Of a DNA stretch of 64,000 nt, positions 47,263-63,549 are shown piece after piece. This DNA is from Syntrophomonas sp. DTU019. Lineage in GTDB: Bacteria; Bacillota; Syntrophomonadia; Syntrophomonadales; Syntrophomonadaceae. The first letter of the stretch is position 1; each line of letters begins with the position of its first letter. The stretch is taken from contig CAJYDM010000001.1 of assembly GCA_913757435.1 (NCBI GenBank), positions 496,001 through 560,000 of the forward strand. Reading direction: 5' to 3'. A program made the position numbers and the translations under genes. The notes under the pieces are model-generated. The model was not told the origin of the DNA, made no database searches, and saw nothing but the letters and a program-made list of their open reading frames with translations.

Positions 47263-47703
47263 CTATAGTGACCGTAGTTCGACTTGATGGGTTCCGAAAT
47301 TATACAGTCCCAGCAAGTCGTGTGCGGGGTCTAAGGTGCAAACCTCGCAGCTTCTTCGGTCGAGCAATACCGCGTCTATGAAACAGTTGTTTCGCCCAGA
47401 ACAGACTATGATTTCAGCTTCGTAGCCGTCGTCAAAACGGGCCGTGAAAATCTGAAGTATTGTGTCAGTCGGTATGATGCCTTCGTCCCAAGAGTCGATT
47501 GTTTCTCCATCAAGAAGCCTTTGCAGTTCTTGTGCGTATTCTTTCTCGACAAAGATGACTGCTTGCCTGGTTGTGTCGATCCAGGCACATTTGCCAACAG
47601 GCAGGTCGTGTGCGGTATGGGTGTACCTAGAAGCTAGTTCTGTCGTATCCACCCAACCGATGGTGTTGTTCCAATAGCCTTCTTCACCAACAATGATATA
47701 CAT
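47263..47703 (-). CDS. Hypothetical protein (146 aa)
   Basis: MYIIVGEEGYWNNTIGWVDT; acidic, beta-rich, no known domain. Start at the ATG with GGAAAGGAGG directly upstream; the longer frame would translate the structured repeat unit and is rejected. Follows repeat unit A, which separates it from dnaE. Confidence 0.7.
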   Translation of the reverse strand: MYIIVGEEGYWNNTIGWVDTTELASRYTHTAHDLPVGKCAWIDTTRQAVIFVEKEYAQELQRLLDGETIDSWDEGIIPTDTILQIFTARFDDGYEAEIIVCSGRNNCFIDAVLLDRRSCEVCTLDPAHDLLGLYNFGTHQVELRSL

Positions 47704-47717
47704 AGTTCCTCCTTTCC

Positions 47718-47815
47718 TCCCGGAGTGTTCCAGGGTAAGATGTTTTATTCCCGGTGGATACCGAGTCAAGGGATCATGCGATCCCGTCTGCGCCCTGAAT
47801 AGGGAGCAGACAGGA
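47718..47815 (-). repeat. Structured intergenic repeat unit, copy A
   Basis: Between dnaE (stop 12 bases away) and the 146-aa gene. Reading the minus strand: hairpin I GTCTGC-CCCT-ATTC-AGGG-GCAGAC (47811-47786), hairpin II GGGATC-GCAT-GATCCC (47785-47770), hairpin III around CGGT/ACCG (47765-47750) and hairpin IV CCCTGG-ACAC-CCGGG (47735-47719), then the ribosome binding site. Hairpins I, II and loop sequences are shared with copies B and D. Confidence 0.8.
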
Positions 47816-47822
47816 GGCATGG

Positions 47823-50798
47823 TCAGGCAATTTTCTTTGGTAGCTTATTGGCCCGATAGGCAAATAATTTAAAGCTGTCTTCTTCGAGTTTGGCTTTGCC
47901 TTGGAACATATAGGCTTGTCCGATATCTATTTGCTTATCGAATACTAAGACTCCTATTTGTCCCGAGTAGTCCTCGACAGTTGCGTAGCACCAGGTCTTG
48001 CCATTTTTGCAGCCGTATTTTGTCTGGGTTACAAGCCCGGTTATTTTGACATTGCCTTCATTAATATTGAAGATGTCTTTACTCGCCGGGAGGTTGTAAG
48101 CATCCAAAGGGTGGCTGGAGACATAGAAGCCTAATGATTCTTTTTCAAGGGAGAGCAGTGTATCTAATGCAAATTCCCCTGTGTCGAGGATGTCGGGAAG
48201 CAGGGTTTCCCCCGCGCCGAAAAGGGTTTGTTCATCCTTTTGGACCATTGAGGTTGCTTTTATAATAATAGGAAGGAATTCTAAAAGACTTTTTCGTTTT
48301 CCGAATGCAGATAAGGTACCTGAATTAATAAGGGTTTCTAAAACCCCCTTATTAAGGCGGGTCTTATAGATCAAATCATAAATATCAGAGTAGGGCTGAT
48401 TATTGATGATTCGCTCCAGGGCTGATTCGCCAAGGTTCTTGACTGCGCCAAGGCCGAACCGTATGCCTCCTGAGTCTATCGAGAACTCAACTGCGGATTT
48501 ATTGATGTCCGGCGGGAGGATTTTAATACCCATCCTGCGGCATTCGTTCAACATCCCCGCGATTTTGTCCAGATCGCTGGTGTTGGTCAAGAGCGCAGCC
48601 ATGAATTCAGTGGGGTGGTGCGCCTTGAGGTAAGCGGTTTGGTAAGCAATCAGAGCATACGCGGCTGAATGACTTTTATTAAAACCATAGCCGGAGAAGT
48701 AGTCGATAAGATTAAAGACCTCTTTGGCAATATGTTCGGGTATGCCGTTGTTTACTGAGCCGTCAATGAATTCCTTGCGGAGGTTCTCAATAACTTCGGG
48801 GATTTTTTTCCCTATGCCTTTACGCAGAGTATCGGCGGCGGGGAGGGAGAGGCCGGCCATGTCGGTTGCTATCTTCATGGTCTGCTCTTGGTATAATATG
48901 ACCCCGTAGGTTTCCTTCAAGATGGGTTCTAATATAGGATGGAGGTATTTTATCTCTTTTGTGCCGTGTTTGCAGTCGATAAAGTCGTCCACCATGCCTG
49001 AGCCTAGCGGTCCGGGCCGATATAAGGCTACCATCGCGATAAGCTCCTCGAACCGGTGGGGCTTTAGCTTTCTTAAGATTCGCTGCATACCTTCGGATTC
49101 GACCTGGAATACCCCAATGGTGTGTCCTTGAGATAGGAGGTTGAACACTACCGGGTCGTCAAGGGGAATTTTATTAATATCAATGTCTTTGATTAGTTTA
49201 ACTGCGTCATCTATGATGGTGAGGGTTTTTAACCCCAATATGTCCATCTTTAGAAGGCCAATCTCTTCACAGGTAGACATTTCGTACTGGGTGGTGGTTT
49301 GATTGTCGATTACCTGTGTCGGGATGATGTTATTTAATGGCTCCGAGCCGATTATCACCCCGGCAGCATGGACCCCGGTGTGTCGCGGCATTCCCTCGAT
49401 TTTTTTAGCAGTGTCGATGATGTGTTGGAGATCGGGGTCTGTTGCGTCATCCAGGGAATCGGTTTTCTTGGCAAGCCGGTCGATTTCATACAACGGCTCC
49501 TCCAAGACCCTGCCAACATCTCTGATGGCTGCTCGGGCTGCCATAGTCCCAAAGGTGATGATTTGGGCAACATATTCTTTGCCGTAGCGGTGGGTAATGT
49601 AGTTGACGATTTCCTGCCTTCGGCGGTAGCAAACATCCTGGTCTACATCGGGCATCGAAACCCTGCTAGGGTTGAGGAAACGCTCAAATATCAATCCCCA
49701 ATCCAGAGGATTTAGTTCAGTAATACCTAAAAGATAAGACACCAAGCTGCCTGCTGCTGATCCCCTGCCTGGGCCTACCGGGATACCCTGAGATTTGGCC
49801 CAGTTCACGATGTCCTGGACTATCAAAAAGTAGTCTGCGAAGCCCATGTTGGATATTATTTCTAGTTCATAGTTCAGCCTACTGACGACTTGAGGACTGG
49901 GGGTTTTGGGGAATCTTTTTGGGAGTCCTAAAAAGGCTTTTTCTCTAAGGGTTTTTACTGTGTCCTCTACAGGGAATTTCGGAAGCAGTATTCTGCCGAA
50001 TTCTAATTCTAAGTTGCATTTTTCGGCGATTACTGCGGTGTTGGATATTGCTTCGGGGGTTTCTCTGAAAAGACTTTTCATTTCTTCGGGCGACTTAAAA
50101 TAAAACTGGTCGTTGAAGAATCTGAATCGTTCAGGATTGGACAATACGTTCTTGGTGCCGATGCACAATAATATATCCTGGGTTTCTGCGTCTTCCTGAT
50201 TAATGTAGTGAGTGTCGTTGGTGGCGACTAGCTGGATATTGTGGTTTTGGGCTAACCTGATTAACTCCGGGTTTACTGCTTTTTCTTCGGGTAAGCCGTG
50301 GTCCATAAGCTCCAAATAGTAGTCATCGCCGAACAGCTCTTTGAATTCGGTGAGACGCGCGTCCACTTCTTTTCTATCCTGAATCAGTCTCGGGATTTCG
50401 CCTCCGATACAACCTGATAGCGCGATCAGCCCTTCGTGGTGCTGAGTCAAAAGCTCCCAGTCTATTCGAGGCTTATAATAAAATCCTTCCGAGTAGGCGC
50501 GGGAAACAAGCTGGATAAGATTCTGGTATCCTGTTTTGTTTTTACATAACAGCACTAGATGGTAGTTGGTTCTGTCTTTGCTGAACCAGTCGGGGACATA
50601 GTAGGTTTCACAGCCTATTATGGGGTTCAATCCAGCCTTTTTGCAGGCTTTATAAAAATCAATGGCCCCGTAAAGGTTCCCATGGTCGGTTATAGCAACT
50701 GCTGGCATATTAAAAGACCTGGCTTTAGCAACCAAGTCTTTAACGCGGGAGGCCCCGTCTAGGAGGCTGTATTCACTGTGGTTATGCAGATGTATCAA
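47823..50798 (-). CDS. dnaE: DNA polymerase III alpha subunit carried by the element
   Basis: Replicative C-family polymerase. PHP domain at the N-terminus (LHNHSEYSLLDGA, then AITDHGNLYGA), palm with PVGPGRGSAAGSLVSY and catalytic aspartates in MPDVDQDV near 382-389, helix-hairpin-helix region, and a C-terminal OB fold (VKITGLVTQTKYG). 991 aa, shorter than the ~1150 of chromosomal DnaE; the tail beyond the OB fold is missing. TTG start with AAAGGAG nine bases upstream. Behind a promoter, a 21-codon leader frame and a terminator. Confidence 0.95.
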   Translation of the reverse strand: MIHLHNHSEYSLLDGASRVKDLVAKARSFNMPAVAITDHGNLYGAIDFYKACKKAGLNPIIGCETYYVPDWFSKDRTNYHLVLLCKNKTGYQNLIQLVSRAYSEGFYYKPRIDWELLTQHHEGLIALSGCIGGEIPRLIQDRKEVDARLTEFKELFGDDYYLELMDHGLPEEKAVNPELIRLAQNHNIQLVATNDTHYINQEDAETQDILLCIGTKNVLSNPERFRFFNDQFYFKSPEEMKSLFRETPEAISNTAVIAEKCNLELEFGRILLPKFPVEDTVKTLREKAFLGLPKRFPKTPSPQVVSRLNYELEIISNMGFADYFLIVQDIVNWAKSQGIPVGPGRGSAAGSLVSYLLGITELNPLDWGLIFERFLNPSRVSMPDVDQDVCYRRRQEIVNYITHRYGKEYVAQIITFGTMAARAAIRDVGRVLEEPLYEIDRLAKKTDSLDDATDPDLQHIIDTAKKIEGMPRHTGVHAAGVIIGSEPLNNIIPTQVIDNQTTTQYEMSTCEEIGLLKMDILGLKTLTIIDDAVKLIKDIDINKIPLDDPVVFNLLSQGHTIGVFQVESEGMQRILRKLKPHRFEELIAMVALYRPGPLGSGMVDDFIDCKHGTKEIKYLHPILEPILKETYGVILYQEQTMKIATDMAGLSLPAADTLRKGIGKKIPEVIENLRKEFIDGSVNNGIPEHIAKEVFNLIDYFSGYGFNKSHSAAYALIAYQTAYLKAHHPTEFMAALLTNTSDLDKIAGMLNECRRMGIKILPPDINKSAVEFSIDSGGIRFGLGAVKNLGESALERIINNQPYSDIYDLIYKTRLNKGVLETLINSGTLSAFGKRKSLLEFLPIIIKATSMVQKDEQTLFGAGETLLPDILDTGEFALDTLLSLEKESLGFYVSSHPLDAYNLPASKDIFNINEGNVKITGLVTQTKYGCKNGKTWCYATVEDYSGQIGVLVFDKQIDIGQAYMFQGKAKLEEDSFKLFAYRANKLPKKIA

Positions 50799-50821
50799 AA
50801 TATCATCTCCTTTTCACGAAA

Positions 50822-50850
50822 GCAAAAAAGCTCCGCAACCTGCGAGCTTT
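50822..50850 (-). terminator. Intrinsic terminator in the dnaE leader
   Basis: Stem AAAGCTC(C)GCA/TGCGAGCTTT with a three-base loop and TTTTTT on the minus strand, between the leader frame's stop codon and the dnaE ribosome binding site. A second hairpin CCGAAACAGC/GCTGTTTCGG (50873-50904) lies within the leader frame and could form a competing structure. Confidence 0.8.
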
Positions 50851-50916
50851 CTAGTTCTTCTTAATACAAAAGCCGAAACAGCCAGGTTTTACTAGCTGTT
50901 TCGGGGTTTTGCACAT
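50851..50916 (-). CDS. Possible 21-aa leader peptide of dnaE
   Basis: MCKTPKQLVKPGCFGFCIKK plus a final N, preceded by GAGG seven bases before the ATG. Three cysteines and six lysines in 21 residues. The stop codon abuts the terminator stem, the arrangement of an attenuator leader. Not recognised as a known peptide; could also be a small secreted or signalling peptide. Confidence 0.5.
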   Translation of the reverse strand: MCKTPKQLVKPGCFGFCIKKN

Positions 50917-50959
50917 TTTTCTACCTCATGGGTAATAAAGATGGTGTGGTGTTATGTTT

Positions 50960-50988
50960 ATTATATAACATATAACTTATAAAGTAAA
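50960..50988 (-). promoter_or_regulatory. Sigma-A-type promoter of the dnaE transcript
   Basis: Minus strand TTTACT (50988-50983), 17 bp, TATAAT (50965-50960), giving a leader of about 155 bases before dnaE. Confidence 0.6.
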
Positions 50989-51033
50989 TAATCTGGTGAT
51001 TTTACTTTATAGGTTACTTACTTTTGCAAAGGA

Positions 51034-51081
51034 TTGCTTATTTGCACAATTTATTGTATAATATGTATAGATTATACAATA
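51034..51081 (+). promoter_or_regulatory. Promoter and palindromic operator of the RHH gene
   Basis: TTGCTT (51034-51039), 17 bp spacer, TATAAT (51057-51062). An inverted repeat with perfect 11 bp arms TATTGTATAAT/ATTATACAATA (51052-51062 and 51071-51081, eight-base spacer) covers the -10 box and start region. Likely binding site of the ribbon-helix-helix protein encoded just downstream. Confidence 0.75.
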
Positions 51082-51100
51082 TATACATGGAGGCACTTCA

Positions 51101-51538
51101 ATGAAAGATATTATGACAAACATAACATTGCCTGCCGATGAGGACCGGGCCTTGAAAATCAAGGCAGCCGAGGCTGGCCTGTCAAAGCGCAGCCTGGCTA
51201 CCCAGATTACAAGGGATTGGCTTAAAGAGCAGGGCGCAAAATCCCGCATATCCGATATAATCGCCCAAGTAGGAAGAATGCCGGATAACGAGAAGTTTTT
51301 TCAAGCAGTTGAGTCTTTGGTTGAAGGCAGCGCAGCACTTGTCCGTTGCCGAGTACAAAAGGGTGTCGCAGATGATTTTGGCAACGAATACAAACTGGCT
51401 TCTGAAGAAGCATCGGCGCGGAAACAGATTTTGGATTCTTTGGAAATACTGAGGCAAGTAGTTGACATCCCAGAAATTGACGCGGATGTTTTCAGTGCGC
51501 TTTTGGTCGAGGATTATTTTAAGAAGCGGATTCGTTGA
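51101..51538 (+). CDS. Ribbon-helix-helix-like regulator (145 aa)
   Basis: The N-terminal ~45 residues (TNITLPADEDRALKIKAAEA then SKRSLATQITRDWLKEQ) look like a ribbon-helix-helix DNA-binding domain; the rest is helical and unrecognised. It is the only gene reading rightward in the element and is divergent from dnaE, so it may control both directions. GGAGG seven bases before the ATG. Its 3' end overlaps the convergent 123-aa gene by 20 bases. Confidence 0.7.
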   Translation: MKDIMTNITLPADEDRALKIKAAEAGLSKRSLATQITRDWLKEQGAKSRISDIIAQVGRMPDNEKFFQAVESLVEGSAALVRCRVQKGVADDFGNEYKLASEEASARKQILDSLEILRQVVDIPEIDADVFSALLVEDYFKKRIR

Positions 51539-51890
51539 GGAGTTTTTTGATACTGTCGTATTCTCTTTGCAGTAAGAATGCGCAATCCCCGATAGATGCG
51601 CGATCATCAGGACCTAGATAGAGCACTTTTCCGTGTGCGGCAAATATCCTATTGGTTGCTTTTAGTCTGCTGATAAACGCATCGTGGGCGGTTCTGCGGT
51701 TTCTATCCAGACGCATGATTTCCTCCCTTAATTCTTCTTCAGAGCAGCGATAAGGTAGGATTTCCAGTTGCGCGTCCATAGTTGTGACGGCCATCGCGTA
51801 GCGCACGGCATTGTTAATCATTTCTCCTACAAGCCTAACTTCGTTAGGATTAAGGCTCGGAAGAATATCCAAAATTCTCTCTCGGTACAT
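51519..51890 (-). CDS. Hypothetical helical protein (123 aa)
   Basis: MYRERILDILPSLNPNEVRL, then NNAVRYAMAVTTMDAQLEIL, LDRNRRTAHDAFISRLKATN. Mostly alpha-helical. Resembles small proteins of unknown function (DUF3232-like) seen in clostridial mobile elements, with limited certainty. A CCCGG/CCGGG hairpin and AGGAGGG immediately precede the ATG. Confidence 0.65.
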   Translation of the reverse strand: MYRERILDILPSLNPNEVRLVGEMINNAVRYAMAVTTMDAQLEILPYRCSEEELREEIMRLDRNRRTAHDAFISRLKATNRIFAAHGKVLYLGPDDRASIGDCAFLLQREYDSIKKLLNESAS

Positions 51891-51899
51891 ATTTCCCTC

Positions 51900-51916
51900 C
51901 TCCCGGTATATCCGGG
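51900..51916 (-). promoter_or_regulatory. CCGG hairpin fused to the ribosome binding site
   Basis: TCCCGG/CCGGGA stem with a five-base ATATA loop; its 3' arm ends at the AGGAGGG of the 123-aa gene, so the hairpin and the ribosome binding site touch. Confidence 0.6.
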
Positions 51917-51944
51917 ATTTTGCTCCAAAATTTTGAAATACGTC

Positions 51945-52208
51945 TTAGCTAGGCTGTGCGGTTAAGGTGACTTCGATATGTTTTGTCGACCGCATACTCG
52001 CAATGTGGTCAACTAATGAATGGAGAAAATCGTTTACAAGCCGCCGCCCTTCGGGGTTGTCATTAATATAGACTGTCTTGTTCCATACGGGCGGTTTCTC
52101 TAACGATTGACCCGGCGAATAATACTGTACGTTGAAATATATCCGTTTTCCGTCTATCCACGGGAAAGACCTTACTTTGTATGAGTCAATCCATATATCT
52201 AACTCCAT
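51945..52208 (-). CDS. Hypothetical protein (87 aa)
   Basis: MELDIWIDSYKVRSFPWIDG, beta-rich first half, then an amphipathic helix (RRLVNDFLHSLVDHIASM). Not recognised. AAAGGAGGG before the ATG. Confidence 0.6.
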   Translation of the reverse strand: MELDIWIDSYKVRSFPWIDGKRIYFNVQYYSPGQSLEKPPVWNKTVYINDNPEGRRLVNDFLHSLVDHIASMRSTKHIEVTLTAQPS

Positions 52209-52272
52209 TTAGTACCCTCCTTTGCATTCGTAGAATTCTGCTCAACATTCTTCTGCACCTATAATTCCAAGG

Positions 52273-52298
52273 GGTTTTCTTCCTACAGGAAGAAAACC
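52273..52298 (-). terminator. Intergenic hairpin after the 68-aa gene
   Basis: 11 bp perfect stem GGTTTTCTTCC/GGAAGAAAACC with a TACA loop, touching the stop codon of the 68-aa gene. No T-tract; may be a processing or stability hairpin. Confidence 0.55.
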
Positions 52299-52505
52299 TT
52301 AATGAACGACATATACCGGGGATTCCGCGATTTTTAGCCAGTCCATGAAAAAAGCATTGGCTAAAACACTCATATTTTCTAATTGAATCTGAAACCACTG
52401 GTAGCTGGTTCTTGTTGCAACGACTTGTTTACTGCCGTGCCAGACGCATCGGCTCTCGCCAATATTCCAAACACCGCCTCGTTTAAGATACTGTGATATT
52501 CCCAT
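52299..52505 (-). CDS. Small paralogue of the 132-aa protein (68 aa)
   Basis: MGISQYLKRGGVWNIGESRC then VWHGSKQVVATRTSYQWFQI match the C-terminal half of the 132-aa protein at 46.85-47.25 kb nearly position for position. The N-terminal beta domain of the larger protein is absent. AAAGGAG five bases before the ATG; preceded by repeat unit B, as the 146-aa gene upstream of the larger paralogue is preceded by unit A. Confidence 0.65.
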   Translation of the reverse strand: MGISQYLKRGGVWNIGESRCVWHGSKQVVATRTSYQWFQIQLENMSVLANAFFMDWLKIAESPVYVVH

Positions 52506-52518
52506 GATTCTCCTTTCT

Positions 52519-52609
52519 CCCGGCGTGTGCCGGGCTAAAATTTCTGTACCCGATGAGTACCGGGGCAATGGATCATGCGATCCCGCCTGCGCCCAAATAG
52601 GGCGCAGGC
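52519..52609 (-). repeat. Structured intergenic repeat unit, copy B
   Basis: Between nrdD (stop 12 bases away, same distance as in copy A) and the 68-aa gene. Hairpin I is a perfect 10 bp stem GCCTGCGCCC/GGGCGCAGGC, hairpin II GGATC-GCAT-GATCC, hairpin III CCCG/CGGG, hairpin IV CCCGGC-ACAC-GCCGGG. Stem pairs differ from copy A by paired changes. Confidence 0.8.
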
Positions 52610-52620
52610 AGCAGACACGA

Positions 52621-54681
52621 TCAGACGTTTGTGTAGATAGCGTATTTTTTTCTGCTCTTGGCTTCTAATTGCTTGCCCTTGTTGAATTGCTTGATGGGCC
52701 GGAGATACCCTACTACGCGGGAATAGACTTCGGTTTCTTCGCCGCAATCCGGGCAAGTGAACTGTTCGCCTTTTAAATACCCGTGGATTTGACACACTGA
52801 GAAACTCGGGGTTATCGAATAGTACGGGATTCTGAAGTGGACCATCTTTTGCAGAAGGCGCTTGATTGCCTCTGCAGAGGGAGATTCACCTAAGAACACA
52901 TGGAACACCGTACCACCAGTGTAGAGTTCCTGTAAGTCCTGTTGGTGTGACAGGGCTTCAAATAGGTCATCAGTATAATTGACCGGGAGTTGGGTGGAGT
53001 TGCTGTAGTAAGGGTGCGGGCTTCCGTGGCGTTCTTTATCCTTCAGTAAAAGGCTGTACGAACAACCTTCGGCTGGAGTGGCTTCAAGATTGTAAAGATT
53101 TCCTGTTTTTTGCTGGTAGCACCTGATTCTTTCGCGCATGAAGTTTAAGGTTTCGACTGCGAATTCATGACCAACAGGATCAGCAATATTGACTCCTAAA
53201 AGATTCAAGCAGGCTTCGTTCATACCCACTAAACCAATAGTGGAAAAGTGATTGTTCCAATATCGTCCTGTGGCCTGTTTTACGCCTTTAAGATAGTGTT
53301 TGGTGTAGGGGTATAACCCCTGGTCGGTGAAGTTTTCTAAGACTTTGCGCTTGATCTCTAAAGACTGAGAAGCAATATCCATTAGTAAGCCTAACCGGGA
53401 GAAGAAGTCTTCTTTGTTTTGAGATAAGTGCCCCAACCTGGGTATGTTGATGGTTACTACACCGATACTGCCCGTAAGAGGATTGGATCCAAATAGACCG
53501 CCCCCGCGCTTCTGGAGTTCGCGGTTGTCTAACCGTAAGCGGCAGCACATACTCCGCGCGTCTTCGGGAGACATATCAGAACCCACGAAGTTCGAGAAGT
53601 AAGGTATGCCGTACTTTGCGGTCATTTCCCAAACGTGATTGAAATTTTCGTCTTCCCAGTTAAAATCCTCAGTGATGTTGTAAGTGGGGATGGGAAAAGT
53701 AAAGACTCTACCGTCGGCATCGCCATCGATCATCACCTCAGTAAAGGCGCGGTTGAGCATATCCATTTCTTCTTGGAATTCTCCGTAGGTCAGGTCTAGC
53801 ATTTCGCCGCCGACTACCACCGGAGAGTAGCTCATATGATTTGGGCAAACAATGTCCATTGTAAGATTGGAAAAAGGGGTTTGGAAACCAACTCGTGTCG
53901 GCACGTTAAGGTTGTAGATAAACTCTTGCATCGCTTGTTTTACTTGTTGAAAATCGAGAGCATCATAAAATATAAACGGAGCCAATAGAGTATCAAAGTT
54001 TGAAAACGCCTGTGCGCCTGCTGCTTCGCCCTGCAAGGTGTAAAGGTAGTTAACTATCTGTCCCAACGCAGTCCTGAAGTGTTTAGGCGGCTTTGAGGCG
54101 ATTTTGCCTTTAACTCCCCTGAAGCCCTGCGCCAACAAGTCTTCTAAAGACCACCCCACGCAGTACGGTCCTAAAACGGAGGTGTCATGGATATGAATAT
54201 CGCCGGATTCGTGGGCCTGGCGGATGGGGTCGGAATATAGCCGGTGGAGCCAATAATCCTCAACCAATCTGCCGGAGATGTGAAAGTTCATCCCCTGTAA
54301 GCTGAAGCACATATTGGAATTTTCGTTGATGCGCCAGTCATTTTGACTGACATATTTTTCGATCACATCATTGTTTATTTGCTTGATAGCCTGGGTTTCC
54401 CGGTTGTCCTGGTGCTGTTTGCGGTAGATGATATAAGCTTTAGCTGTCTTATAGTGGCCCGACTTGACCAGAGTCTTTTCTACCTGATCCTGGACTTGTT
54501 CCACAGATGCTATTTTATCAGGATATTTGTTGATTAGAGCAGTCTCAACCACACGGGTTAAATATACTGCCCGGTTAAAGTCTGCGCCGCCGCTGGCTTT
54601 GGCGGCGGCCCAGATTGCGTTAGTGATTTTGATGGGGTCGTATTCCACGACTCTTCCATCGCGTTTGATGATTTGCTTCAT
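52621..54681 (-). CDS. nrdD: Anaerobic (class III) ribonucleoside-triphosphate reductase
   Basis: Oxygen-sensitive glycyl-radical enzyme making dNTPs. N-terminal ATP-cone (IKRDGRVVEYDPIKITNAIW, residues 4-23), catalytic barrel, zinc site with CQIHG near 629 and CPDCG near 645, and the glycyl-radical loop RVVGYLRP near 657-664. 686 aa. AGGAGG before the ATG. No nrdG activase gene is seen in the window, so activation must come from elsewhere. Confidence 0.96.
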   Translation of the reverse strand: MKQIIKRDGRVVEYDPIKITNAIWAAAKASGGADFNRAVYLTRVVETALINKYPDKIASVEQVQDQVEKTLVKSGHYKTAKAYIIYRKQHQDNRETQAIKQINNDVIEKYVSQNDWRINENSNMCFSLQGMNFHISGRLVEDYWLHRLYSDPIRQAHESGDIHIHDTSVLGPYCVGWSLEDLLAQGFRGVKGKIASKPPKHFRTALGQIVNYLYTLQGEAAGAQAFSNFDTLLAPFIFYDALDFQQVKQAMQEFIYNLNVPTRVGFQTPFSNLTMDIVCPNHMSYSPVVVGGEMLDLTYGEFQEEMDMLNRAFTEVMIDGDADGRVFTFPIPTYNITEDFNWEDENFNHVWEMTAKYGIPYFSNFVGSDMSPEDARSMCCRLRLDNRELQKRGGGLFGSNPLTGSIGVVTINIPRLGHLSQNKEDFFSRLGLLMDIASQSLEIKRKVLENFTDQGLYPYTKHYLKGVKQATGRYWNNHFSTIGLVGMNEACLNLLGVNIADPVGHEFAVETLNFMRERIRCYQQKTGNLYNLEATPAEGCSYSLLLKDKERHGSPHPYYSNSTQLPVNYTDDLFEALSHQQDLQELYTGGTVFHVFLGESPSAEAIKRLLQKMVHFRIPYYSITPSFSVCQIHGYLKGEQFTCPDCGEETEVYSRVVGYLRPIKQFNKGKQLEAKSRKKYAIYTNV

Positions 54682-54710
54682 GTTTTCCTCCTAAAAGAGT
54701 TTTTAATTTT

Positions 54711-54738
54711 AAAGGAGTCCGATAATTCGGACTCCTTT
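54711..54738 (-). promoter_or_regulatory. Hairpin in the nrdD leader
   Basis: 12 bp perfect stem AAAGGAGTCCGA/TCGGACTCCTTT with a four-base loop, about 20 bases upstream of the nrdD ribosome binding site. Its 3' arm contains ACTCCT, able to pair with the AGGAGG of nrdD, so an alternative fold is possible. Confidence 0.6.
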
Positions 54739-54744
54739 TCAGAT

Positions 54745-54867
54745 TCATATTGGGCCTTCCCAATAATACATACATCTGGAACATTCGATGAAATAATAAT
54801 ACTGCCCTAGTTCTTCGTCCCATTTCTTGGTGATGATTGCCTTTCCGCAGGCACAGCCTACAATCAT
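54745..54867 (-). CDS. Small zinc-ribbon-like protein (40 aa)
   Basis: MIVGCACGKAIITKKWDEEL, then ECSRCMYYWEGPI: CxC and CxxC pairs suggest a tiny metal-binding ribbon. Function unknown. AAGGGGG before the ATG. Upstream of nrdD, separated by the nrdD leader hairpin. Confidence 0.6.
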   Translation of the reverse strand: MIVGCACGKAIITKKWDEELGQYYYFIECSRCMYYWEGPI

Positions 54868-54880
54868 TTGAATTCCCCCT

Positions 54881-55204
54881 TTAAGGATGGATTTTAACAA
54901 TGATGACTTTTTCCCAGGCGTAGCCGTCAACGATTTTGCGGGCTTCTTCTTCGGTGATTTCGTCAGCTATGTCTTCATCCCATATTTCCTCCATTAGTTC
55001 GTCATAATCAAGAGATTTAACGTATATTCTCTCTCTGCAGGGAGCTTCCCAGACTTCTTCTATCTCGGCGGTTCCCCATTGGGCCACCCAAGAATTGAAG
55101 TCGTCCGAGGGGACACAATCGGTATCCACCAGCGGGAGTATTCTCAGCTTGGGGTTGGCCTGTATGATGTCGAACAACTGTTTGGTTTCCTCTTGTTGGC
55201 TCAT
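54881..55204 (-). CDS. Hypothetical acidic protein (107 aa)
   Basis: Strongly acidic (EELMEEIWDEDIADEITEEE) with a helical start MSQQEETKQLFDIIQANPKL. Not recognised. AAAAGGAG before the ATG, and a small AAGTTT/AAACTT hairpin just before that. Confidence 0.65.
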   Translation of the reverse strand: MSQQEETKQLFDIIQANPKLRILPLVDTDCVPSDDFNSWVAQWGTAEIEEVWEAPCRERIYVKSLDYDELMEEIWDEDIADEITEEEARKIVDGYAWEKVIIVKIHP

Positions 55205-55320
55205 AGATAAGTCTCCTTTTAAGTTTTGTAAACTTCTAGTGCTTTTTTGTCGCAGACGATACCCATAGGATTGAAGGGGTATTGGCTCATTAGTTCTTCC
55301 GCTTTTTTATCCTTTCCGCG

Positions 55321-55488
55321 TTAGTAAGAGATACACAAACTATCATTTTTGCAAGAGGGACACTTAGTTATGTTTCCTTCACATCGGTCAGAGATGTAAT
55401 ATCCGCCCAACATTGAAACAATGAACACTGCCTTATAGAATTCCATGGTGTCTACTTCAAAGCTGCAGCGTTCACAATATAACCCCAT
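55321..55488 (-). CDS. Small zinc-ribbon-like protein (55 aa)
   Basis: Two cysteine pairs, YCERC near the N-terminus and KCPSC near the C-terminus, around a hydrophobic middle (YKAVFIVSMLGGYYIS). Start at the ATG with AGGA just upstream. Function unknown. Confidence 0.55.
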   Translation of the reverse strand: MGLYCERCSFEVDTMEFYKAVFIVSMLGGYYISDRCEGNITKCPSCKNDSLCISY

Positions 55489-55586
55489 ATCTTCCTGTCC
55501 CAATGTCAGTATGTTATTGAATATTTTTAGTTAATCTCCAATGCCTTTTCTCCTTTCTTTTTGTGCATGGCGCAAGTTTTATTAAG

Positions 55587-55610
55587 TTCGGGCAGGTTAT
55601 TCTGCCCGAA
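55587..55610 (-). terminator. Hairpin after the 100-aa gene
   Basis: 9 bp stem TTCGGGCAG/CTGCCCGAA with a six-base loop, five bases past the stop of the 100-aa gene. T-tract weak on the minus strand. Confidence 0.6.
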
Positions 55611-55614
55611 AGGG

Positions 55615-55917
55615 TTATTCGCTTGAGGGCTGCCTGAGAGGATTGATCACTACTAATCCGCTCGGCCCTTTAAGGATTAAGGGTGCTGTTCCCTTCCGAT
55701 AATAAAGGGTGATTTCGCCCTGGAGTATCTCTTTTGCTAACTGCAATTTATCGCTGCCCACGGCTGCTGTTGAGTTATCTAATCGTAGATTAGTTACCCC
55801 AGATAATTCTGTCACTTCTACCTGGTCCAGCGGTATGCTTTCATGCCCGGCTGTATCCAGGAAAAACTCATAGTCTGGAAATTTTCCATTGTTTAGACCG
55901 GCCTTCCCCATCCTCAA
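55615..55917 (-). CDS. Hypothetical protein (about 100 aa)
   Basis: Contains PDYEFFLDTAGHESIPLDQV and a C-terminal LILKGPSGLVVINPL. Not recognised. It overlaps the end of the gene before it by about 50 bases and has no clear ribosome binding site, so its start (TTG 55917 or ATG 55911) depends on translational coupling. Confidence 0.55.
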   Translation of the reverse strand: MRMGKAGLNNGKFPDYEFFLDTAGHESIPLDQVEVTELSGVTNLRLDNSTAAVGSDKLQLAKEILQGEITLYYRKGTAPLILKGPSGLVVINPLRQPSSE

Positions 55918-56218
55918 GGGTGACTACTATGCGACCTTTCAATGGCTCCGGGATGGTGTCGCATCTTACTTTGCTCAACATATACGAATCCGAAGATACC
56001 ATATGACCATCCTGGGTCATTAAAACTCCCATGAAGTATGTCTTGTAGTGAACCTGCGCAGCCACCTTTTTGGCGTTGTCGAAGGCTTTTTTGAAGTCTT
56101 CAGATATAGCCACCATGACATACTCTGAAATCGCGTTTTTAATTGCGTTTTCAAGTTCGGTCTTCTCTTTTTTAGCTACTTCTTCTGGCGTCCCAATGGT
56201 CATAGTATTCATGCTCAT
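55868..56218 (-). CDS. Hypothetical protein (about 116 aa)
   Basis: Helical N-terminus rich in Glu/Lys (TPEEVAKKEKTELENAIKNA), then strands YKTYFMGVLMTQDGHMVSSD and RIVVTLEDGEG. Not recognised. Start uncertain: three ATG codons lie close together near 56218, all within the 3' part of the small Cys-rich gene in another frame. Confidence 0.5.
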   Translation of the reverse strand: MSMNTMTIGTPEEVAKKEKTELENAIKNAISEYVMVAISEDFKKAFDNAKKVAAQVHYKTYFMGVLMTQDGHMVSSDSYMLSKVRCDTIPEPLKGRIVVTLEDGEGRSKQWKISRL

Positions 56219-56294
56219 AATGCTCGCAGTCCTCGCAATAAGAAGTGCCATCGTGTTTGCAGTATTCGCAATCCCCGTAATGATCTTTGCTCAT
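56172..56294 (-). CDS. Small Cys/His-rich protein (40 aa)
   Basis: MSKDHYGDCEYCKHDGTSYC followed by EDCEHYEHEYYDHWDARRSS. CxxC and CxxC pairs plus many His and Tyr residues suggest a metal-binding miniprotein. GGAGG nine bases before the ATG. Its 3' end overlaps the start of the next gene out of frame. Confidence 0.6.
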   Translation of the reverse strand: MSKDHYGDCEYCKHDGTSYCEDCEHYEHEYYDHWDARRSS

Positions 56295-56347
56295 GGTTTT
56301 ATGCCTCCATTCAGTGAAGTCTTTTTCTAAGGGTTTTTAACTCCTAT

Positions 56348-57253
56348 TTAACCAGTTTGCAGTGCCCATAAACCACGAGATACAGAATAAAATTCAGGTT
56401 TACTCTGCAATGTCTCGCGGATTTTGGCTTTTGGATCAGAGTGCTTTTTAGTGGTAACGAATCCTCTCAGTTCGGAATACAGTTCCGGCAGTCCGGCTTC
56501 GCCGCCAAGTTTTCTTAATGCTTGCCTTACGGCTTGTCTCCAGGAAAGGTTGTATCGCCTAGAATCAAAGACTTTGTGAGATACAGCTATTATTTTGGTT
56601 TCATAACAAGAACTGTCTTTTCGCATGATTACGGCATATTCGTGGACTATCGGGATAAACCGCCCTGAATATTGCCTAGAATTACTAAGGCAGTTGTGTT
56701 GCGTTTTTATAACGATCTGTTCAAGGGTGCCGAAAAAGGCCATGTCTTTAACCATGCTATATAACTGACCGTTCTTCTTAGCATCGCCGACCAATGTAAT
56801 CAATCTGCCCCCTTTAGGAAGGGATAGAAAAGAATTGTAGTGCATCCGGTTGATGGCTTTAATAAAATCATGGTAATTACTGAAGTGTGAAGGGTCATCA
56901 GGATGAGGGGTTTTGCCCCACTGGTGTCCAGAATATAAAACCATCTTTTGCGGATATGGGGGGTGTAGGATTATTAATGTGGGCATTTTGCTATAGCCCC
57001 CCATATTGACAGGGGGTAAATCATCTCTTAGAAGATTAACCCCGCCAAAGGCCGGGTTTAAATCTGTGCCGATGCAAGGGATGTTTTTTTCCCGGCAGAC
57101 ATCCAACGTTGTGCCGGAGCCTACGGTATAGTCCCCTACCGAATCCGGTCTGAAAAAATCAATTATGTCTTCAACAAACTTGGGAGAAAAATTCCCCCGA
57201 TAGGTATTTTTCCCCCCAGTGCCTCGTTCCGGGTAGGATACCACGCTCTGCAT
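56348..57253 (-). CDS. DNA methyltransferase (N4-cytosine/N6-adenine type) with C-terminal winged-helix domain
   Basis: S-adenosylmethionine motif DYTVGSGTT (residues ~41-49) followed by CIGTDLNP, and a motif IV-like LHPPYP near 96-101 where D, N or S is usual before PPY. The C-terminal ~70 residues (WRQAVRQALRKLGGEAGLPE onward) look like a HARE-type winged helix. 301 aa from the ATG with AGGAGG six bases upstream; that sequence includes the stop codon of the preceding gene. No restriction enzyme is adjacent. Confidence 0.8.
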   Translation of the reverse strand: MQSVVSYPERGTGGKNTYRGNFSPKFVEDIIDFFRPDSVGDYTVGSGTTLDVCREKNIPCIGTDLNPAFGGVNLLRDDLPPVNMGGYSKMPTLIILHPPYPQKMVLYSGHQWGKTPHPDDPSHFSNYHDFIKAINRMHYNSFLSLPKGGRLITLVGDAKKNGQLYSMVKDMAFFGTLEQIVIKTQHNCLSNSRQYSGRFIPIVHEYAVIMRKDSSCYETKIIAVSHKVFDSRRYNLSWRQAVRQALRKLGGEAGLPELYSELRGFVTTKKHSDPKAKIRETLQSKPEFYSVSRGLWALQTG

Positions 57254-57263
57254 ACTATCCCTC

Positions 57264-58061
57264 CTAAACAACTTTTTTTAGCGTCCTGTTTTCTTTACGC
57301 AGGTCTTTCAAATCCTGTTCGAGTTCCTGCTTTTCAGCTTTGAGTTTTTCTATTGTGTCTTGCAGCAGGTATCTCTCTTGATAGAGGTTGGTATTCTCGG
57401 CTACGAGATTAAGAAAACCCCCAGCGAATTCACTGAATTGAATCTCGGAGGCTTTTTGAGAAATGACTTCTTGGACATATTCGGTGGGATTAGAGCTTTT
57501 TGCTGCGGCCACAAGGTCGTTTACGTCTACTAGCGGGTTGTTTAACAATGAATCAGGGATAGCCCCTACCCGTGTGTAGACAAGCGCATCGTGGATGTCG
57601 ATTACCATTGTATCGGCGATTTCCAGCACATTGAGAACCTTTTTCATATTTGCTGCTTTCCGGCATTTCGTTAAGAAGGGTTCTTTTTTGTCTCTCCTTC
57701 TCAGGGTTCTTCTGGTTTTGATGGGAACACCATGTCTAAGTCTTATGCTTGTTTTGGATTCTACTTTGTCGGGCGGGATGTTTTTTACTAGGTTGATGTT
57801 CCATTTGATAGATTCGGGACTTTTCCCAGTTATTCCAGCTAATTCTTCGATAGACATACCCTCGTCATGTTTGAACATTAACCGGCAGCAATAAATATAT
57901 GCCGCGAAGGTATCTGTGATCGGAAGTGGGAAGGACATAAAAAATTCTCTTGTTTCTTTTACTGAACTGTCTGTGGCAAGGGCTGCCATTTCAATGCCTT
58001 CTTGGATAGAAGAACACTTAAAAAACATCTCTTTTAAAACATCTTCTTTTTTAAACAACAT
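57264..58061 (-). CDS. Hypothetical protein with HTH and C-terminal coiled coil (265 aa)
   Basis: Possible helix-turn-helix at ~68-95 (MSIEELAGITGKSPESIKWN), a basic stretch KTRRTLRRRDKKEP near 115-128, and a strong coiled coil in the last ~40 residues (LQDTIEKLKAEKQELEQDLK). Might be a DNA-binding or partition-type protein, but no ParB box is seen. AAAAGGAG precedes the ATG, itself preceded by repeat unit C. Confidence 0.65.
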   Translation of the reverse strand: MLFKKEDVLKEMFFKCSSIQEGIEMAALATDSSVKETREFFMSFPLPITDTFAAYIYCCRLMFKHDEGMSIEELAGITGKSPESIKWNINLVKNIPPDKVESKTSIRLRHGVPIKTRRTLRRRDKKEPFLTKCRKAANMKKVLNVLEIADTMVIDIHDALVYTRVGAIPDSLLNNPLVDVNDLVAAAKSSNPTEYVQEVISQKASEIQFSEFAGGFLNLVAENTNLYQERYLLQDTIEKLKAEKQELEQDLKDLRKENRTLKKVV

Positions 58062-58079
58062 AAAACCAGCTCCTTTTCT

Positions 58080-58144
58080 CCCGGAGTGTTCCGGGGTATG
58101 ATATTTATTCCCGGCGGATGCCGGGGTAATGGATCATGCGATCC
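58080..58144 (-). repeat. Structured intergenic repeat unit, copy C
   Basis: Hairpin II GGATC-GCAT-GATCC (58131-58144), hairpin III CCCGGC/GCCGGG (58110-58126) and hairpin IV CCCGGA-ACAC-type loop-TCCGGG (58080-58096), then the ribosome binding site of the 265-aa gene. Hairpin I of the other copies is missing; a different long stem (11 bp arms with one mismatch, GCGCAGGAGGT/ACCTGCTGCGC, 58197-58228) stands upstream instead. Confidence 0.75.
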
Positions 58145-58248
58145 AGCCAATTTGCTATTTTAAGTAAACAGGTGGATAGTATGAGCAGGAACTTGCCCGC
58201 GCAGGAGGTCTTTTTTAAAACCTGCTGCGCCGGGAAATCCCGGCTTAA

Positions 58249-58521
58249 TTACTCCAATACTAGCGTTGAAGCCCTTCGTTTTGATTCGAGCTTACTCGCG
58301 TTAGCGTAAGGGTTGGTTTTCCCTTCTGCGGGGGTTTTTTCGGACTTCTTGGTGAAGTGAGAATAATAATAGCCGGCCGCTACTCCTAATACAGCTACAA
58401 GCAATACCGGGGCATACACAAGCCCTAGTATTACCAAGAGGGCTTTTGCGGGCCAAGACCCCAAAATGGCCTTAATGGGCTTTGGAACTTCTGTGGGATA
58501 CTTGATTTCAATAGTTTTCAT
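58249..58521 (-). CDS. Small membrane protein (90 aa)
   Basis: One or two hydrophobic segments (~23-46, AKALLVILGLVYAPVLLVAV) flanked by basic residues, then a soluble Lys/Ser-rich tail. Function unknown. AAAGGAG six bases before the ATG and a small TGGC/GCCA hairpin just before that. Confidence 0.6.
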   Translation of the reverse strand: MKTIEIKYPTEVPKPIKAILGSWPAKALLVILGLVYAPVLLVAVLGVAAGYYYSHFTKKSEKTPAEGKTNPYANASKLESKRRASTLVLE

Positions 58522-58607
58522 CAAAAACTCCTTTCTGTGGCGCGTGCCAACTTAAAAACTCATTGCAACTCGCGTAATTTGGCGGTCGTTATTTCGGCGT
58601 GTTTAGG

Positions 58608-58699
58608 CCCGGAGTGTTCCAGGGTAATATTTCTGTACCTGGCGAGTACCAAGGCAAGGGATCATGCGATCCCGTCTGCGCCCTGAATAGGGAGCAGAC
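58608..58699 (-). repeat. Structured intergenic repeat unit, copy D
   Basis: Between the primase gene (stop 59 bases away) and the 90-aa membrane protein gene. Hairpin I identical to copy A (GTCTGC...GCAGAC, 58674-58699), hairpin II GGGATC-GCAT-GATCCC (58658-58673), hairpin III CCTGG/CCAAGG (58636-58654) and hairpin IV as in copy A (58608-58624). Unlike A to C, hairpin IV is 87 bases from the next start codon. Confidence 0.8.
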
Positions 58700-58757
58700 A
58701 GGAGACATGAGCTTTATTCCCATGAATTGATAACAGGGAGTCTTTTTCGAGTGAGAT

Positions 58758-61205: not shown

Positions 61206-63549
61206 ATAGGTAAGGCTTTTGAAGTTATCTTCTATTTTCCCCCACACCGTGACTTTCACCTCAGCGTTCCATCGGCATTCAAGTCAATTTCTATGGATTA
61301 TACTTGGTGATCAATCTTGGGTTCAACTGAATTTTGTTCGATTTGTTGCCTTCGCAATCTGTTTTTCGTCTAGCATAAGGCACTCTATCAATGGTGCAGG
61401 TATCGTTGCATGGATTAGTTGATGGACTGTTTATTGATCATCGGGTTTTGATATTTATCGGCTCCACCTACTTTGGCGGATGATGACAGTGAATGTCATC
61501 GTAGTCCATGTTCTCCTTGTTATGGCGCACCTGCCTTTTACGAATAAAATACGATTGTCGCATTCTAATGATTGTTCCATTACAGGGTTTAACATCAGAT
61601 ATTGTAGTACTTGGTCTAATTGCAAGATTTTGTGAATTTCCTTTCGCCTTCTGTGTATTGATAGATCGCTTCTTTGCATAGATTTTGGTTTGAACATAGC
61701 TTACAACCGCCATTGGATGTCCATCAGGTATCGCATCTGTTTGGATTTCCCGTAAAGGTCTTGTTATTGCGTTGTTCAAATCTTTTATTTCTTTTTGTAA
61801 CCTACTTCTTAAACGGTTTTGGTGGTTATGGCAACTCTGCCTATTATGCTCAGATTAATGTTAGTGGCTATGCGATAATGTTAATCCTAAGACCATTTGA
61901 ACTCTTTGCAGTTCTGGTATTCGCTTTATCATCTTTGGGTCTTCGCATTTTTGACTTGTTGCTTTAATTTTAAGGTAGCGTTTTCTTGCTTTATCACTAA
62001 GTGCGTGATTTAACTTGTTTGCTGCCTTTGTTTTGAACTTTAATTTTGAAAACCAATTCATATTGTCGTTTCAGATTGACAACTCTAGTTTTTCGGGCGA
62101 TATTTCCAGCTTCACCTTTTCTAACCATTTCGTGGCTACGTTTTGATTCTTGTTCGACAGAAGTTCTAAAGTCGTCTATCTTACTATATACATTTCTTTC
62201 AGATTGGTTTTCTTCATGGCTGTGTATCCATTGGTAATTGATTGTTCCGTTTTACTGGGATGCTATGAGTCTTACTGGATTGGTCCATTATTTTATCATT
62301 TATCAGTTCATTTAGAACTTGTTATAGCAATGGCGATAGGATTTGGGGTTCCCTTAGGCCTGATAACGTTATCTGGCATTTGGATGGTGCGAAGAATTTT
62401 TCGATTATATATAGCAAGGTTTATCCTTATACCCAATGACCACATTATTCATTTCGATGGTTTACATTGTCGAACTTTGATATCGAATCTATAGCGTAAT
62501 TAACCCTTGTCGTATATATGATAGTTTGAGCAATAGCCGTTTCACTACTTCTATTGGGTCTGGAACGACCTATCGCTGAATTTTTGTTTCGAGATTGGTT
62601 CAAGGACTTTTACATTGCTGTATAACCTGTCCATATACACGGAATTCCTGCGAGTTTTTCTTTCGTTGGGCTTGGGGATATCTTTACGACGGACTGCTCT
62701 ATGGTAGTTTTTAGTATTCTCGGACTTATCAACCATTCGGACGGCATTTGCCGACTGATTTATGGTTAATTGTCAGTTCCAGGGGTGTTGCTCCTGGTGC
62801 TTTTGATATTCCTATATGCCAAAGTATGTTTTCATGGCTGGTGATGACTTCCATAAGGTTGTCAAAATTTTACCTTCACATTTCTTTATATAGGTTGTCA
62901 AAAGTATCCTGGAGTCCATACCGTTGTGCCTAAGATTGTTTATTTTCATAGTATTAAGGATCTACCTCTTTCCTTGTTTTAGAGTGATCCTTTGGTCTTA
63001 CTGTAACCCTTTGTTCATCCATAGTTTTGGTTTGAATGCTAGAGGCTGTTCTTCATCTTCATTACAAGACTTCTTCGGTCGTGCTCCGCTTTCACTCGCC
63101 GATCAACTCATTTTTCTTCGTCAGTTTATTGTTTTCAACTCGGCAGCTTCCTCGTTCCGATAACTTATCTATGCATATCCGGGTTCTGCTTTGAGCCTGT
63201 TAGCATAGTGCCTGTAACACTATGGTGTTCATAACTCAAATTACCCACCACACTAACACAACAGGGTATCATTTCTACACATTTGGCTTTTAGACCACAT
63301 TCGCAGATTCGTCATGTTTTACCAATTCTAACATAGATATTTTGTAGACCCCGGCCTATAGGTAAACCATCCACTCCTGACGCTTTCGTATTGATTACTC
63401 AATTCAGTTACTTCAGCCGACTTCTCCGGGCTTCATTTGCCGCTGGAGTATTTCAGGTAGCGTTTCAGGGTCCCCGTCATTCCACCTTTGGGTTATCAGT
63501 TCTCCATCTTGCTATCATGCCTAAACTTTTCATTAGGAACGAGTCGCAC
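61206..63549 (-). mobile_element. Degenerate group II intron
   Basis: The minus strand begins with the canonical GTGCGAC at 63549, followed by domain I-like sequence (GAAGTAACTGAATTGAGTAA, GGATGGTTTACC) and a GAGTGAAAGCGGAGCA segment. A broken reverse transcriptase frame occupies the middle. Near the 3' end, GGAACGC...GGTGAAAGTC...ACGGTGTGG then GGGGGAAAA resembles domain V/VI but is several bases short of the 34-base domain V. The 3' end is placed at CTTACCTAT (61206); an in-frame exon junction would need the end one base further on. A-T-rich relative to neighbours. Confidence 0.8.
61323..62872 (-). pseudogene. Group II intron reverse transcriptase/maturase with HNH domain, frameshifted
   Basis: Pieces of one protein in three frames: LMEVITSHENIL then LAYRNIKSTRSNTPGTD (RT0/RT1), AVRRKDIPKPNERKTR and VLEPISKQKFSD (RT2), GRSRPNRSSETAIAQTI, KFDNVNH (catalytic YADD region not recovered), and a C-terminal HNH remnant DYDDIHCHH followed out of frame by VGGADKYQN and LIHATIPAP, ending TGA at 61323. 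At least five frameshifts, so no functional protein. Confidence 0.8.

Follow-up and report, generated by a model that had tools for sequence, protein, structure and literature searches.

A repeated structured leader that looks like an RNA switchboard for the genes of a Syntrophomonas conjugative element

The 64-kb stretch of Syntrophomonas sp. DTU019 DNA analysed here (the window) carries copies of an intergenic unit that is a covarying RNA family without an entry in Rfam. With a probability of roughly 0.6, we read it as a family of cis-acting intercistronic mRNA leaders and as the basis of a post-transcriptional regulon of large conjugative elements. The repeated leader resembles an RNA switchboard of an undescribed kind that would serve genes of the element itself; if it is read by a protein, it would illustrate how a mobile element can regulate many genes of its own through their mRNAs.

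Copies of the unit and their distribution

A first-pass annotation of the window had described four copies of a multi-hairpin unit, and all four (A–D) were recovered where it had placed them, on the minus strand, which is that of the genes. Copies A, C and D share 70–84% identity with copy B, the reference, over 76 nt. The sequence GGATCGCATGATCC, previously given as GGATC-GCAT-GATCC, is indeed invariant in the four, and copies A and B begin twelve bases past a stop codon, as described. Their parts are as follows:

47772–47824, minus: copy A 5' domain with GATCRTGY-type box, hairpin I and RCATGATC strand; predicted long imperfect hairpin
47786–47811 and 47771–47784, minus: hairpin I and hairpin II, respectively, in the alternative fold of copy A
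47750–47765, minus: copy A hairpin III, CTCGGT-ATCC-ACCGGG
47719–47734, minus: copy A hairpin IV, CCTGGA-ACAC-TCCGGG
47701–47712, minus: ribosome-binding site plus start codon ATG, 146-codon gene downstream of copy A
47263–47703, minus: gene after copy A, 146 aa, without Pfam, PHROGs or PADLOC match
52571–52622, minus: copy B 5' domain, forming a long hairpin with its hairpin I core at 52584–52610 (alternative: hairpin II at 52570–52583)
52549–52564, minus: copy B hairpin III, CCCGGT-ACTC-ATCGGG
52519–52534, minus: copy B hairpin IV, CCCGGC-ACAC-GCCGGG
52503–52513, minus: ribosome-binding site plus start codon ATG, 68-codon gene downstream of copy B (follows nrdD)
58132–58186, minus: copy C 5' domain, with a long but weak hairpin (alternative: hairpin II at 58131–58144)
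58110–58125, minus: copy C hairpin III, CCCGGC-ATCC-GCCGGG
58080–58095, minus: copy C hairpin IV, CCCGGA-ACAC-TCCGGG
58059–58073, minus: ribosome-binding site plus start codon ATG, 265-codon gene downstream of copy C
58660–58712, minus: copy D 5' domain (hairpin I core 58674–58699; hairpin II alternative 58659–58672)
58638–58653, minus: copy D hairpin III, CTTGGT-ACTC-GCCAGG
58608–58623, minus: copy D hairpin IV, CCTGGA-ACAC-TCCGGG, not directly followed by a ribosome-binding site
58519–58551, minus: short hairpin TGGC-ACGC-GCCA, then AGAAAGGAG and the start codon ATG, 90-codon gene downstream of copy D, assigned from sequence

A fifth copy (E) lies just beyond the window at C1:565170-565238, upstream of a 19-codon ORF that overlaps ssb, and a degenerate sixth copy is located near it (C1:565841-565905, 18 bits). 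Copy D follows a primase gene. According to a genome-wide search, the unit is confined to one ~122-kb conjugative element of the 3.2-Mb genome, where all copies are on the mRNA strand. A covariance model built from copies A–E only (R1) matched two copies (F and G) in L100, a contig of a related element, with 45 and 37 bits. After retraining on these seven copies, the model (R2) recovered copy H blind (59 bits, E 2.6e-10), on a different contig of that assembly. The unit thus precedes at least five genes of the source element and three more in its relative. The eight genes downstream of copies A–H have no mutual similarity, and their comparison with PADLOC gave nothing informative.

Only two element lineages with the unit are known. 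It was not found in 62 other genomes of the class, in 397 genomes of the phylum, or in GTDB contigs by a strict pattern search, and blastn against phages and plasmids returned no match. Viral contigs contained no unit matches beyond chance. Exact 16- and 17-base matches in these contigs (17 and 38 stretches) were dismissed as chance, because the best of them reached only 27 bits and lay inside an ORF. A search of the viral contigs through the AAA, nuclease and gene-C proteins found nothing, and the primase led to only two relatives, 30% identical. The hairpin arrays of L101 contain A.C mismatches on the strand read, and L101 was therefore not counted as support.

A small mobile hairpin element of the REP/MITE type that spread inside the conjugative element, one of the options listed in the first-pass annotation, would account for dispersed copies, and the genome does have five Y1 transposase genes. 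However, none of these genes is inside the element, the copies occur only there and are always gene-oriented and before genes, and they combine unrelated stems with fixed loops. We consider this origin extremely improbable.

Stem covariation and the strand under constraint

In the named helices of the eight copies, 135 of 136 cells are paired (99.3%), and 10 of the 17 pairs have changed on both sides (23 cells). The covariation score of 0.607 compares with 0.236 (sd 0.039) in shuffled alignments, 0/500 of which reach it. Nine pairs changed on both sides with seven copies and four with copies A–E alone (0/500 shuffles in each case). The first-pass annotation had proposed selection on the structure of RNA or single-stranded DNA and had named covariation in homologues as support for it. 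Such homologues exist: copies F–H, retrieved with the covariance models, pair with changed stems, and this strong covariation supports the proposal. The earlier description is correct for hairpins III and IV, for the ACAC loop, for the loop-closing pair of hairpin IV (C-G in B and A-T in C, with ACAC kept) and for the second pair of hairpin I (C-G in B and T-A in both A and D). The hairpin I mismatch in A and D, by contrast, is T opposite C and not G opposite A.

The loops are far more constant than the stems that carry them. Hairpin III has an A-Y-N-C loop throughout the eight copies and hairpin IV an ACAC loop in seven of them; between the source and the relative element, the stems of both hairpins are wholly different, but the loops are kept. 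On the gene strand of the element there are six hairpins with an ACAC tetraloop, five inside units and one in the degenerate sixth copy, compared to none on the opposite strand. The same tetraloop was found in 1 of 189 hairpins in 43 kb of host DNA and in 0 of 492 in G306.

Wobble pairs in hairpins I–IV, read on the mRNA strand, comprise 15 G.U and no A.C. Hairpins III and IV are joined by an A/U-rich linker of about 14–16 nt, and hairpin IV ends 5–7 nt before GGAG in copies A, B, C, E, F, G and H. The earlier observation that the hairpins end near a ribosome-binding site consequently holds for A, B and C, but not for D, whose site follows the separate short hairpin; judged from the sequence, this hairpin and AGAAAGGAG may be the equivalent of hairpin IV and the ribosome-binding site. 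The 15:0 wobble asymmetry together with the fixed distance to the ribosome-binding site favours mRNA over the template DNA strand as the constrained molecule. No promoter-like site was found inside copies A–D, and no T-run follows any of their hairpins on the gene strand.

These features bear on a comparison with Frpo/ssi sites. In conjugative elements, such folded sites precede ssb and establishment genes; it is the transferred template strand that folds, with the -35 and -10 boxes in the stem (PMC11541004). If the unit were a single-stranded DNA promoter or initiation site of this type, host RNA polymerase would read the entering strand for early expression of ssb and establishment genes. 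The setting agrees with this: the element is conjugative, ssb lies downstream of copy E, and a methyltransferase and many small genes of unknown function are nearby, as in the places that Frpo sites occupy (PMC11541004). Yet no promoter boxes are seen in copies A–D, the wobbles in hairpins I–IV indicate constraint on the mRNA strand, and a constant distance to the ribosome-binding site would not be expected, so that we regard this function as improbable.

At the gathering threshold, Rfam 15 matched only a group II intron in the window, and a permissive search that included the STAXI motif (RF01728) gave no credible match at any unit. The initial impression that the unit belongs to no known family is thereby borne out. 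STAXI, likewise repeated and structured, occurs close to ssb and further genes for the handling of DNA, and was argued to act as RNA, not as single-stranded DNA; it forms a tandem pseudoknot in which UUCG loops are frequent and is listed for Enterobacteriales (Weinberg et al., 2010, PMC2864571). Both are repeated structured motifs near ssb, but the unit consists of a long hairpin and two ACAC-type hairpins that adjoin ribosome-binding sites. The PeSL cassettes of T4-type phages (Arbiol, 2010; Comeau, 2014), as outlined in PMC4503421, combine an early promoter with a terminator-like stem-loop. To the extent of that outline, they resemble the unit as repeated intergenic stem-loop cassettes ahead of unrelated genes, and differ from it in their promoter and terminator-like parts. 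Another option is a processive antitermination site (nut- or put-like), whose RNA would modify RNA polymerase to let it pass terminators further downstream. The repetition of a structured RNA in a single direction of transcription within a mobile element would agree with this. Since the units stand directly before individual genes and not at operon starts, and in view of the Rfam result, such a role is very improbable.

Fold of the 5' domain

Whole-unit folds of copies A–D are far below those of shuffled sequences (z -3.1 to -5.3). For the 5' domain, z is -6.9 in copy A (47770–47823), -7.3 in B (52570–52623), -2.8 in C (58131–58184) and -6.2 in D (58659–58713). The long 5' stem previously described for three copies was thus retained for A, B and D, but copy C has a weak one too. 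The four-hairpin model stood only in part, as hairpin II is one alternative among two: its strands also pair with the upstream GATCRTGY box, and are predicted to form with it one long imperfect hairpin in place of hairpins I and II. In each of the eight copies, this long imperfect helix is the structure of lowest predicted energy for the 5' domain. Predictions for the full-length unit favour the hairpin-II state in copy A and the long helix in copy B; in copy C, hairpin II has a probability of 0.60 and the long helix is not favoured. Mismatches in the box that closes the long helix are balanced (4 G.U and 4 A.C-type, counted by eye), and the long helix is therefore less secure than hairpins III and IV. 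Based on these predicted folds, the model should be revised to a long 5' hairpin (or, alternatively, hairpins I and II) followed by two ACAC-type hairpins.

A switch that hides the ribosome-binding site was also considered. No conserved pairing of this kind was found across the copies, and since the 5' segment pairs well with the site only in A and G (p 0.07 and 0.09), the switch was rejected as a general mechanism.

The long helix could instead belong to a cassette for RNA processing or stability, in which RNase III-type cleavage would occur in the long 5' hairpin and the two small hairpins would shield the new 5' end. T7 early mRNA is processed between cistrons in an analogous way. Besides the uniform lowest-energy prediction for the 5' domain, the position of copies A, B and G directly 3' of the stop codon of the preceding gene agrees with this explanation. 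Here the loops would need no dedicated protein, however, and the persistence of ACAC-type loops amid the turnover of their stems would be left unexplained. Moreover, the long helix is not the favoured state in full-length A and C. We therefore regard a processing cassette as possible, but unlikely.

A putative leader regulon and its reader

We favour the leader regulon, in which one leader ahead of unrelated genes (ssb and small ORFans) would join them in a single post-transcriptional regulon of the element. In its 5' part, the leader would form the long imperfect hairpin closed on the GATCRTGY/RCATGATC box, which could rearrange into a shorter hairpin plus GGATC-RCAT-GATCC. The 3' part would present the two fixed-loop hairpins (A-Y-N-C and ACAC), followed after 5–7 nt by the ribosome-binding site and the start codon. 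The twin ACAC-type loops beside the ribosome-binding site would be recognised in trans by an RNA-binding factor of the element or of the host, which would thereby set the translation (or stability) of the next gene, and the long 5' hairpin may insulate or process the message between cistrons. We infer that the unit is transcribed, that its message is processed, and that a factor controls the step of translation.

Leaders of the CsrA/RsmA type follow a comparable scheme: several hairpins with a fixed loop are situated near the ribosome-binding sites of many genes, and one protein reads them. Their loop is GGA, as opposed to ACAC/AYNC in the unit. A loop-binding factor probably does read the unit, and one candidate is a ribosomal-protein-S1-like protein of the element, whose gene lies beside copy E (C1:566520-567341) and whose best PDB match is bS1 (E 1.5e-53). 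No S1-like gene was found in the assembly with copies F–H, which contains only fragments of the related element. Fixed loops on exchangeable stems would offer an easy handle for finding the factor.

More speculatively, and with considerable doubt, each large Firmicute conjugative element might have a private leader code: a hairpin whose loop is fixed and element-specific and whose stem covaries freely would precede the ribosome-binding sites of many unrelated genes and be recognised by an element-encoded reader (perhaps an S1-like translation protein). If true, every element would have a translational regulon to itself. Different repeated leaders occur in other elements whose primases are related, which suggests a wider pattern.

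Copies of the unit and the conjugative element that carries them

The four copies of the multi-hairpin unit reported in the first-pass annotation are all present and lie on the gene (minus) strand. A search of the 3.2-Mb genome added a fifth copy and a degenerate sixth and gave no other credible match:

Window 47718-47815, minus strand: copy A
Window 52519-52609, minus strand: copy B
Window 58080-58144, minus strand: copy C
Window 58608-58699, minus strand: copy D
Source contig 565170-565238: copy E, 5' of a 19-codon ORF overlapping ssb
Source contig 565841-565905: degenerate sixth copy, 18 bits

The copies sit in a conjugative element of 45% G+C within host DNA of about 51% G+C. In window coordinates, continued beyond the window's end, the element runs from about 44 kb to about 167 kb. 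Its products include the alpha subunit of DNA polymerase III, an anaerobic NTP reductase, a primase, RecT, SSB, a VirB4-type ATPase and ParA. At about 61300-63500 of the window a VWA-type gene is split, and a group II intron match (RF02004, 63341-63504) lies there; this gene is intact in the related contig L100 and genome G306. Copies C and E share upstream homology (window 58190-58247; locus L005, 1600-1680) that holds two more hairpins, GCCGGG-N-CCCGGC and GCGCAG..CTGCGC.

Blastn against phages, plasmids and 199 relatives returned nothing beyond one weak partial match, and no unit was found by covariance-model searches of 62 other genomes of the class and 397 genomes of the phylum, or by a strict-pattern search of GTDB contigs. 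The element's AAA protein led to one close relative, L100 (JAHKLX010000029.1; proteins 48–82% identical), a bacterial conjugative-element contig filed, probably by mis-binning, in an assembly labelled Micrarchaeota. A covariance model trained on A–E only picked out units F (45.3 bits) and G (36.8 bits) on that contig, and a model retrained on seven copies found an eighth, H (59.3 bits), on a different contig of that assembly. The more distant relatives L101 and L102 (the latter from G306) yielded no unit. That the unit itself is mobile is disfavoured, the sequence tests being against it.

Covariation, folding strand and the 5' domain

Paired stem changes, as originally proposed, are borne out across eight copies: helices II, III and IV pair in 135 of 136 cells, and 10 of their 17 pairs change on both sides. 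None of 500 shuffles reached any of five covariation measures, and sliding the partners in the eight-copy alignment makes the covariation score collapse. Helix II does not vary and is therefore uninformative on its own. Between the two elements, III and IV have different stems but keep their loops: A-Y-N-C throughout in III, and ACAC (seven copies) or ACAA (one) in IV. The six ACAC tetraloop hairpins of the element are all on the gene strand; five belong to units and the other to the degenerate sixth copy.

On the mRNA strand, the 203 stem pairs of hairpins I–IV include 15 G.T, two T.C and no A.C, whereas folding of the template strand would be expected to give A.C instead of G.T wobbles. Frpo-type promoters, which would act as single-stranded DNA, are disfavoured, with sequence tests against them. 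RNase III-like processing may still apply, and antitermination was weighed as a further rival.

Hairpin II stands only in part: its strands can pair, but a longer alternative helix competes with it in the 5' domain. Immediately 5' of hairpin I lies a box, GATCRTGY. Pairing of this box with RCATGATC, and of its adjoining bases with GGAT, would make the 5' part one long imperfect hairpin. In each of the eight copies the 5' domain reaches its lowest energy in this fold (z -2.8 to -8.5), as do six of the seven full-length copies folded under constraints. In the ensemble of seven copies the long helix is favoured in B, E, F and H and hairpin II in A, G is split, and C prefers II over the long helix. 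The closing box of the long helix, inspected by eye, holds as many G.U as A.C-type cells (four each), which makes this helix less secure than III and IV. A 14-base strand able to join either fold is more conserved than any other part of the unit, and its conservation would fit a two-state element.

Downstream genes and a possible reader

Hairpin IV ends 5–7 nt before GGAG in seven of the eight copies (A–C and E–H); in copy D, the exception, a separate TGGC-ACGC-GCCA hairpin precedes the ribosome-binding site. Among the eight proteins encoded downstream no similarity is detectable, and the majority match no family. Loops that stay fixed on exchangeable stems, beside the ribosome-binding sites of unrelated genes, suggest that the unit is read by a loop-reading factor in post-transcriptional control. 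Such a factor would recognise the loops adjoining these sites and thereby control the following genes. An S1-like protein of the element (source contig 566520-567341; L011 10520-11341) is encoded beside the copy-E region; its family matches ribosomal protein S1 (E 1.5e-53), and it is conserved in the sibling elements L101 and G306. It is only a candidate, because elements without the unit also have it and no copy of it turned up in the fragmentary assembly holding F–H.

Leaders in other elements

Repeated leaders before genes were also read from the sequences of three more sets of elements whose primases are related; each set has its own type. The first leader, in 7–8 copies directly 5' of genes, consists of a terminator, an A/T spacer, an apparently covarying hairpin with paired changes (CCTGCG-AAATA-CGCAGG type) and GAAAGGAG; G044 and G267, whose elements are nearly identical, carry it (L085–L088 and L097). 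The second (L079–L082; about 10 and 6 copies in G236 and G394) has a TTGGCAGTTTGCCAA hairpin, then AGTT(T/A)GC and a ribosome-binding site, at which AAGGGG can in several copies pair with a flanking CCCCTT. The third, in three copies, runs ribosome site, hairpin, ATG. A GC-rich hairpin separates the ribosome-binding site from the start codon of several genes in loci L083 (about 8055, 8959 and 9556) and L089 (about 8131 and 9046). L101, a related Desulfallas element, carries two arrays of three tandem hairpins (4419-4524 and 20381-20488, 16 kb apart) with CTTYYAAGTA-type loops. The 104,792-base G306 contig NZ_FQUW01000012.1 has exact 310-base inverted repeats at both ends, which would mark a linear replicon or an artefact of assembly.
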